Assembly: GCF_002970935.1 (NCBI RefSeq) | Contig: NZ_CP027194.1 | Coordinates: 62,001 to 126,000, forward strand | DNA: 64,000 nucleotides | DNA from: Lactobacillus sp. CBA3606 | Lineage (GTDB): Bacteria > Bacillota > Bacilli > Lactobacillales > Lactobacillaceae | Direction of reading: 5' to 3' | Shown here: piece after piece, positions 21,996 to 23,476 of the stretch | How the letters are laid out: each line of letters starts with the position of its first letter | Numbering within the stretch: position 1 is the stretch's first letter | Translations under genes and position numbers: made by a program | The notes under the pieces: generated by a model | Told to the model about the DNA's origin: nothing | What the model saw: only the letters and a program-made list of their open reading frames with translations | The model's database searches: none

Positions 21996-22442
21996 ATGAA
22001 TATTGAAATTTTAAACTCAGCGATTCAAGATTTACATTTTCAAATTATTTATGACCGTGATGAAACGAAAGATGAACCCGGCCAAGGGCAATTTAGTTAT
22101 ACACCAGCTAATCCAGATGTTAAAAAAACCTTTGGGGATGACGTCGTGCAAGCCCAATTAGACGTGACCTATAAGGAAGAAATGTACGATTTATCAGCAA
22201 CGGTCTTTGCCATTGTGCGTTTAAGTGGTGAAATGGTCAGCATGATTGAACGGCAAGCCAGTAACAAGCCGTTAGAAGATGATGAAAAAGGGATGCTAGA
22301 TAACCTAAACGGTGCGATTATTCCCGCTTTATCAGCTAAAGTACGGGCCTATGCTGCCTTGTTCTCAACGGAAGCTAGCAATTTTGCAGTGATGCCAGCG
22401 GATTTTGATGATAGTCAGGAAAATGCCCCTAAACCAGCCTAA
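21996..22442 (+). CDS. Cytosolic protein, DUF1149-like
   Basis: 148 aa, acidic, without membrane segments. Features: an N-terminal beta-strand opening (MNIEILNSAIQDLHFQI), a central VVQAQLDVTYKEEMYDLSAT and an AIVRLSGEM stretch. This matches what I recall of the DUF1149 (SecB-like fold) family of lactobacilli and streptococci; the assignment is moderate. ATG preceded by AAAAAAGGGG. It is followed by its own terminator and has no operon partner. Confidence 0.68.
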   Translation: MNIEILNSAIQDLHFQIIYDRDETKDEPGQGQFSYTPANPDVKKTFGDDVVQAQLDVTYKEEMYDLSATVFAIVRLSGEMVSMIERQASNKPLEDDEKGMLDNLNGAIIPALSAKVRAYAALFSTEASNFAVMPADFDDSQENAPKPA

Positions 22443-22476
22443 GCTTTAGGTGGTTAATAAAATAATGCTCCTTAGT

Positions 22477-22512
22477 AATGGCGTTTGAGTGCTGCTCAAA
22501 CGTTATTTTTTA
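22477..22512 (+). terminator. Terminator of DUF1149-like gene
   Basis: AATGGCGTTTGAG pairs with CTCAAACGTTATT (13 bp including two G-T pairs, loop TGCTG), followed by a T run. Confidence 0.88.
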
Positions 22513-22558
22513 TGGGCGAGTCATTTTGTTAAGTGAAAAAACGAAGTTACAAAACCAT

Positions 22559-22588
22559 TTGTGCAATTATTAACAATCGTGATATAAT
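22559..22588 (+). promoter_or_regulatory. Sigma-A promoter of the structured RNA
   Basis: TTGTGC (-35) and a consensus TATAAT (-10) are separated by 18 bp. Transcription would start near 22594-22596, at the base of the first hairpin of the RNA described next and more than 300 bp from the next coding start. Confidence 0.75.
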
Positions 22589-22594
22589 GGGAAT

Positions 22595-22835
22595 TGACCT
22601 CAATAGCAGTTGCTAGTTGGGATTAGGTCAAAAGGCGTTGTTAGCGTTAGCTTGCAATTATCTACGGACTGACGGCACCCTTGGTTGTCAAAGTTGGGGG
22701 TGGCGGTTTAACGAGTGTTAATCCGTCAGCACACATACTTTTAAAAGCACGATGCGCACATAGGATGAGAACCCCGGGTGTCCGCAAGGTCAATGGCGAT
22801 TGAATTACAACTTGGTAATTCGGTAGCCATTTTTG
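22595..22835 (+). ncRNA. Putative structured non-coding RNA of about 240 nt
   Basis: It is framed by a good promoter and an intrinsic terminator and contains no credible reading frame. Hairpin 1: TGACCT (22595) pairs with AGGTCA (ending 22630), with an inner TAGC-AGTT-GCTA. Hairpin 2: CTGACGG (22669) pairs with CCGTCAG (ending 22729), enclosing CACCC/GGGTG; an alternative pairing joins CGGACTGACGGCACCC segments to GGGTGTCCG at 22777-22784. Hairpin 3, the terminator: AATGGC (22792) and GAATTAC pair with GTAATTC and GCCATT (ending 22831), followed by TTTTT. I could not match it to tmRNA, RNase P, SRP RNA or a known riboswitch; a 6S-type RNA is the main alternative. Confidence 0.62.
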
Positions 22836-22921
22836 ATTACCCTGAGGGTTAAATTAATGCGATTAAAAAGCTGTAAAAATGATAATGAAAGCGTATACTA
22901 ACGGTGAGAGGAGTGACGATC

Positions 22922-23476
22922 ATGTTTAAACCAATGGCATCAATTTTTACAAATCATCAGATTGCTGGTCATTATCGTGCGATTGACCGAGCCAAACAAT
23001 GTATTGTGCCGTTTCATTTTGAAATTCAAGGCACTGAATATCCACAACCGGTACCGGAAAAGAACTGGTTACGCCGGCTATCGGGGACCCGGAGCGAGCA
23101 CTATGCGATGGTTGAATTGACACCGACAAAAGTGATTTTATGGTCGCCAGAGCGCCGGAATTTGGGTGAAATGGCGTTAACCGATATTAAACTTATTCAG
23201 GTGGGGGCTATTCGCTGGCATGTCACTCAAGGACTCGATCCGCGACATGCTTTTCGCGCAACTATTTTTGTTGTGACGGATGCGGGGAACTATTATTTTG
23301 CAAATTCAGATATGGAAGTTTTACCAGCTATTTTTAAGTTCGCCCATGCACACAGCATTCCGGTTGAAGACCCCTTACGTTTAATTCCATTATTGAAGGT
23401 TGGGTGGCAAGTCGCCGCTAAGACACTCCATGAAACCTATGCCCAGTTAGCGAAACATACTGGCTATCCAGATTAA
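22922..23476 (+). CDS. Conserved-looking hypothetical protein
   Basis: 184 aa, soluble, no signal peptide. It contains a beta-rich central part (VELTPTKVILWSPERRN and LIQVGAIRWHVTQGLDP) and an alpha-helical end. I do not recognise the family. ATG 22922 is chosen because GAGAGGAG lies eight bases upstream; an in-frame GTG at 22904 overlaps that site. It has its own promoter-like sequence downstream of the RNA terminator and convergent neighbour gdhA. Confidence 0.65.
   Translation: MFKPMASIFTNHQIAGHYRAIDRAKQCIVPFHFEIQGTEYPQPVPEKNWLRRLSGTRSEHYAMVELTPTKVILWSPERRNLGEMALTDIKLIQVGAIRWHVTQGLDPRHAFRATIFVVTDAGNYYFANSDMEVLPAIFKFAHAHSIPVEDPLRLIPLLKVGWQVAAKTLHETYAQLAKHTGYPD

Follow-up and report, generated by a model that had tools for sequence, protein, structure and literature searches.

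The window analyzed here, a stretch of 64,000 nucleotides from Lactobacillus sp. CBA3606, contains a predicted free-standing RNA gene at positions 22559-22834 that comprises a promoter, a transcribed region of ~242 nt and an intrinsic terminator. With somewhat better than even confidence, we consider the product to be a genus-specific, stand-alone regulatory RNA of ~240 nt that would be repressed by CcpA and would act in trans through an invariant junction. Sequence comparison defines a promoter bearing a predicted cre, a 5' domain containing UCAAAAGG, a covarying rod (P2), a junction with a hairpin (P3), and the terminator. In this architecture P2 is capped by the junction with P3, where an invariant GGGGR faces RCACA, and a second, exposed CACAUA lies nearby. 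Lactiplantibacillus plantarum and related species count among the major bacteria of food and gut. Provided that the cre is functional, the CcpA regulon of the genus would gain a post-transcriptional arm through this RNA. Among the literature matches listed, no such arm is described and the RNA is named in no title or abstract opening; the available portion of PMC12807594 held nothing relevant.

The boundaries of the gene are set by signals on the forward strand. The promoter (22559-22588) consists of a -35-like TTGTGC (22559-22564), an 18-bp spacer and an extended -10 (TG at 22580-22581, TATAAT at 22583-22588), as had been proposed from the sequence of the window. The distance between TTGTG[TC] and the -10 is 17-18 bp in 19 of 20 homologues (18 bp in 17, 17 bp in L027 and L050), and in the remaining one (L047) an insertion places the -10 at 29 bp, which is 11 bp further on. 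The TG of the extended -10 is kept in 19/20. The RNA is assigned to 22593-22834, with its predicted start a few bases past the -10 and its end at the T-run. The terminator (22792-22834), also part of the earlier proposal, pairs AATGGC with GCCATT (22792-22831) ahead of T5, and all 20 homologues end in a hairpin of -17.2 to -31.7 kcal/mol with 5-8 U after it. Both the promoter and the terminator were missed by a consensus scan of the window, and the case for these two ends therefore rests on their conservation in relatives. Taken together, the promoter and terminator signals point to transcription of this region. In L. plantarum WCFS1, gene-free regions have been predicted to hold 106 start sites (PMC3447810), and the start of this RNA could be one of them.

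The homologues were gathered by reading upstream of the downstream protein in genomes of the genus. Their pairwise identity over the RNA ranges from 44 to 99% (median 51%), and a DNA search for the RNA succeeded in 12 of 60 relatives; within the genus it reached 12/21 genomes, its own genome included. R1, a covariance model for the core with 20 sequences and 25 pairs, places the RNA at the same locus, in single copy, in 20/21 Lactiplantibacillus genomes. Since R1 was built from these 20 sequences, its matches to them are expected, and the informative part of the search is that it returned one match per genus genome and no credible outsiders. Against 120 relatives, 21 genomes were matched (the 20 genus members and G022); against 397 family genomes, 22 were matched (the same 20 with G184 and G235), and G022 was not recovered. 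These three outside matches were rejected: that in G184 falls inside a GTPase-family reading frame, and in both G235 and G022 the match occupies a short A+U-rich frame immediately past a T-box leader and has neither GGGGR nor P3. The 376 other Lactobacillaceae genomes thus gave no credible match at E 0.01, under the stricter filters of searches of more than 40 genomes, which lose weak matches. The sole genus genome lacking the RNA is G009 (L048), in which a short stretch separates the two retained neighbors. The downstream protein also occurs in 14 records with organism titles, and all 14 intergenic stretches carry GGGGRTG, UCAAAAGG-type and CACATA motifs; these records include L. songbeiensis, L. 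dongliensis, L. garii, L. nangangensis, L. daowaiensis, L. pingfangensis, L. xiangfangensis, L. herbarum, L. daoliensis, L. fabifermentans, L. modestisalitolerans, L. mudanjiangensis and one labelled L. plantarum EGD-AQ4. As far as searched, this is a real RNA family by sequence and predicted structure, limited to Lactiplantibacillus among the 397 Lactobacillaceae genomes.

The predicted fold contains a 5' hairpin, P1 (22594-22631; UUGACC with GGUCAA), with pair probabilities of 0.51-0.70 in the window and a form that varies among species; the rod P2, whose 5' strand (22667-22690; GAC, GGCACCC and GGUU-UCA) and 3' strand (22766-22791) are assigned from covariation and pairing probabilities; and the hairpin P3 (22701-22728). 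The long pairing of GGCACCC with GGGTGTCC that had been drawn by hand is borne out, with probabilities of 0.93-1.00 in the window and 0.91-1.00 in the sister genome (L031), and this helix shows compensatory changes. A proposed switch, in which CGGAC would offer an alternative pairing, was rejected: CGGAC competes only for pairing at the foot of this rod, where it forms a variant and not a rival fold. As both pairings fall within one nested rod, no switch is needed. The RNA at 22593-22834 folds at -82 kcal/mol, which is better than chance (z -3.27, with none of 200 dinucleotide shuffles as stable; z -2.78 and 1/200 for the slightly different boundaries of the preliminary description). Across the 20 homologues, taken without the terminator, folding energy gives weaker evidence and is only modestly better than that of shuffles, with a mean z of -1.49, values below -2 in 9/20, and positive values in L034 (+1.89) and L046 (+0.58).

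Covariation among relatives, which the preliminary description had named as a check, provides the stronger support. In a MAFFT alignment of the homologues (A2), P2 and P3 covary; 78.7% of cells are paired, compared with 23.8-45.4% when partners are slid by 1-3 columns. The covariation score is 0.428 against 0.060-0.161 for slid partners, and 0 of 500 shuffles scored as high, although kinship alone can beat shuffles of this type. Changes on both sides occur in 18 of 25 pairs, a count that was matched by 18/500 shuffles in one of five shuffle measures. The tested structure was drawn on L036 and consequently leans toward that sequence. By helix, the paired cells in A2 amount to 97.6% for P3, 74.2% for P2a and 57.0% for P2b, and a model-fitted alignment (A3) gives nearly the same figures; RNAalifold on A3 found P3 alone. 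The register of P2 appears to shift by a few bases from species to species, and we therefore applied an alignment-free pairing test, in which the 5' flank of each homologue was combined with its own 3' flank and with the 3' flanks of other species (<75% identical). Pairing as strong as the cognate one was reached by 44 of 362 non-cognate combinations, and by none in 10 of the 20 homologues, which supports the pairing of P2. The cognate effect is absent in L034 (13/19 non-cognates as strong) and L027 (8/18). When the 3' flank was subjected to mononucleotide shuffling (200 shuffles for each homologue), the energy of the cognate P2 was attained in 0-33 of the shuffles, most often in L034 (33), L046 (25), L032 (18), L050 (14) and L027 (11).

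Within this scaffold, several segments are invariant or nearly so among the 20 homologues: UCAAAAGG in the 5' domain, with the nearly invariant GUCAAAAGG at 22627-22635 of the window; GGGGRUG (GGGGGUG at 22696-22702), which varies at R alone; a first CACACAUA motif (22730-22737), partly opposite GGGG; and a second motif, CACAUAG (22757-22763), just 5' of the 3' strand of P2, in which CACAUA is invariant. The pair G22699-C22730 has a probability of 0.94 in the window, and the G-C pair past the R.R mismatch that adjoins P3 is unchanged in 20/20 homologues. We infer that GGGGR and RCACA could extend the pairing with G-C and G.A pairs in alternation. Of the conserved segments measured, the second CACAUAG is the most accessible, with a mean unpaired probability over the 20 homologues of 0.75 compared with 0.37 for the whole RNA. 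These features suggest a mechanism in which the variable helices would serve as a scaffold for an RNA acting in trans, and the invariant, partly single-stranded junction would be where a partner RNA or protein makes contact. It is possible, and we put this forward as a tentative and somewhat doubtful proposal, that the junction is a docking site for a protein, formed by an irregular purine-rich helix in which GGGGR and RCACA face each other, together with the second CACAUAG. If so, this RNA would act in lactobacilli as a decoy or scaffold under catabolite control, with a role like that of CsrB or 6S RNA and a new RNA motif. The conserved junction offers a concrete bait with which to find the partner.

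Control of the RNA is suggested by a cre-like element in the promoter. From the third base of TTGTG, the homologous promoters read TGTAAGCGTTAACA or close variants, and they fit the cre consensus TGWAANCGNTNWCA (PMC6309078; related forms in PMC2329647) exactly in 17 of 20 cases and with one mismatch in L031 and L050. The copy in the window, TGCAATTATTAACA (22562-22575), extends from the end of the -35 into the spacer and is degenerate, with three mismatches. CcpA itself scores above its curated cut-off in 21/21 genus genomes. In Lactococcus, cre sites centered near or downstream of the -35 are reported to repress (PMC2329647); given this rule and the presence of CcpA in all 21 genomes, repression is the expected direction. 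The RNA is thus probably under CcpA control through the predicted promoter cre, which by this model CcpA would cover, repressing transcription while a preferred sugar is present, and the RNA would be made once this repression lifts. Similar operators are also used by LacI-family regulators other than CcpA (PMC2329647). The element did not form part of the preliminary description. In the window the central CG of the cre is lost, and it is still present in the sister genome L031. Without this core, the window's copy of the RNA is predicted to be less glucose-repressed than the copies of its relatives; glucose control may have weakened in this lineage, and the decayed cre in the window's own species would then constitute a natural experiment.

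By control and by G-run, the nearest working analogues are RosA of B. subtilis and RsaI of S. aureus, both of which are CcpA-repressed and use G-rich regions (PMC8216469; PMC9266662); we draw the analogy with no claim of kinship. RosA (S345) is a sponge that resembles this RNA in being stand-alone, in its size class (~225 nt) and in having a promoter cre and G-rich elements (PMC8216469). Its cre is predicted at -1 to +12, whereas the one described here lies between the -35 and the -10. RsaI/RsaOG is repressed by CcpA when glucose is abundant and binds other sRNAs through its G-rich regions (PMC9266662; PMC8216469), but it is 111 nt long (PMC9266662) compared with ~240 nt for the RNA described here, for which no Rfam family reached its cut-off. 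By analogy, the invariant GGGG could capture C-rich small RNAs once cells are released from catabolite repression, and the cre at the promoter (exact in 17 of the 20 predicted promoters, with one mismatch in two and three in the window) is in keeping with such a role. We nevertheless regard it as unlikely. RoxS/RsaE (RF01820), the partner of RosA, had no match in any of the 21 genus genomes at E 0.1 in a search that found the B. subtilis control; the G-run has a mean unpaired probability of 0.46 and in the window mostly faces CACA; and the region has no Rfam match.

Neither of two seed searches, with the complements of the extended second motif (CTATGTGCGCA) and of GUCAAAAGG, gave a conserved target in the genus genomes. 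For CTATGTGCGCA no place recurs besides the RNA gene, with 11 occurrences in that gene and four single ones elsewhere (G006, G013, G003, G019). One lead came from the search with GUCAAAAGG, for which complements close to a ribosome site were sought: a membrane-protein-like frame of 68 aa starting TTGACC (L101; G000:C1:921871-922074) that is present in 21/21 genus genomes. The predicted energy of pairing between the RNA and the start region of this frame is -19.6 kcal/mol in G000 and -16.8 kcal/mol in G001, against -6.9 to -13.8 kcal/mol in the other 18 orthologues tested (G009 being without the RNA). As strong pairing is confined to these two genomes, the frame was rejected as a conserved target.

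Action in trans, which we favor, has to be weighed against a role as a cis-acting leader, an attenuator or riboswitch of the downstream gene with the terminator as its expression platform. That gene (22922-23476, forward strand) encodes a protein of 184 aa and follows the RNA, in the same orientation, in each of the 20 genomes that have it. Between them, an imperfect cre-like element, TGAAAGCGTATACT (22886-22899), contains the likely -10 of the 184-aa gene, a promoter role assigned by eye. It is identical in 20/21 genus genomes, where it lies 36-39 bases upstream of the point at which the aligned protein begins, and is found only in the 20 that bear the RNA, a pattern consistent with a leader; however, the joint loss of the RNA and TGAAAGCGTATACT in G009 could be explained by a single deletion. 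The short gap in G009 that lacks TGAAAGCGTATACT holds a promoter-like TATAAT and a short hairpin, both noted by eye. Several findings make the leader reading highly improbable. The 184-aa gene has its own conserved promoter-like segment with TGAAAGCGTATACT (20/21) and the RNA its own terminator, and we take the gene as a separate transcription unit; G009 retains the gene without the RNA; and no conserved alternative pairing with the terminator was seen by eye, the terminator arms being variable. In L. fabifermentans (L027) a 421-aa ORF on the opposite strand separates the RNA from the downstream gene, and in L. dongliensis a 231-aa ORF lies between the upstream gene and the RNA; because of these intervening ORFs, the RNA is not tied to either neighbor. 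Intergenic stretches of a length similar to that in L. dongliensis occur in L. songbeiensis, L. daowaiensis and L. mudanjiangensis. The upstream neighbor (21996-22442, forward strand; 148 aa) has no Pfam or NCBIfam match and serves as a syntenic landmark outside the RNA.

The 184-aa protein is itself present in 21/21 genus genomes, with weak paralogues elsewhere in the genus, and lacks any sequence match in Pfam, NCBIfam or PDB. Its structural model, of moderate confidence (pLDDT 72), resembles PH-like domains with a modest score (best Z 8.2, rmsd 3.0, 86 residues aligned), which suggests a PH-like fold.

That the transcript is instead an mRNA for a small peptide is more improbable still. Short TTG-started frames do overlap the conserved core in some species, and the longest-shared of them, the KVGGGGL frame of 40-73 aa, is open in 7/20 homologues (L030-L033, L035-L037). 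None is kept over the 20 sequences, however, as starts, stops and lengths differ, a ribosome site is present in few, and the P3 loop lengths vary out of frame. The peptide reading was therefore rejected.

Comparison with known families argues for a new stand-alone structured RNA. The region 22450-22920 has no Rfam family match at gathering cut-offs, a check that the preliminary description had called for. Its best score is to Enterococcus-1 RNA (RF02973; 14.3 bits, E 2.6), far below the cut-off of 71.4, in a match that begins upstream of the promoter, and nothing reliable is shared with that RNA. The homologous loci gave five weak Rfam matches up to E 1, all outside the RNA. The earlier suggestion of either 6S RNA or a new regulatory RNA is upheld in its second half, by the covariation and the lack of an Rfam match. 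The first half, that this is the 6S RNA of the organism or a second 6S, we find hardly credible and reject, since 6S RNA (RF00013) is not matched in 22450-22920 at the gathering cut-off or at any value up to E 5, and a full-length 6S candidate lies elsewhere. The resemblance is one of size, stand-alone structured form and a cre at the promoter, a cre at the 6S promoter being reported for about a third of lactic acid bacterial species (PMC8414754). In these bacteria 6S RNA is reported near rarA and a usp gene (PMC8414754), and the RNA described here has other neighbors. The 6S candidate (G000:C1:871014-871202) scores 38.2 bits over model positions 1-187, under the Rfam cut-off of 46.4, and follows a MgsA/RarA-type gene and precedes a Usp-family gene, with one 117-aa ORF between the 6S candidate and the latter.
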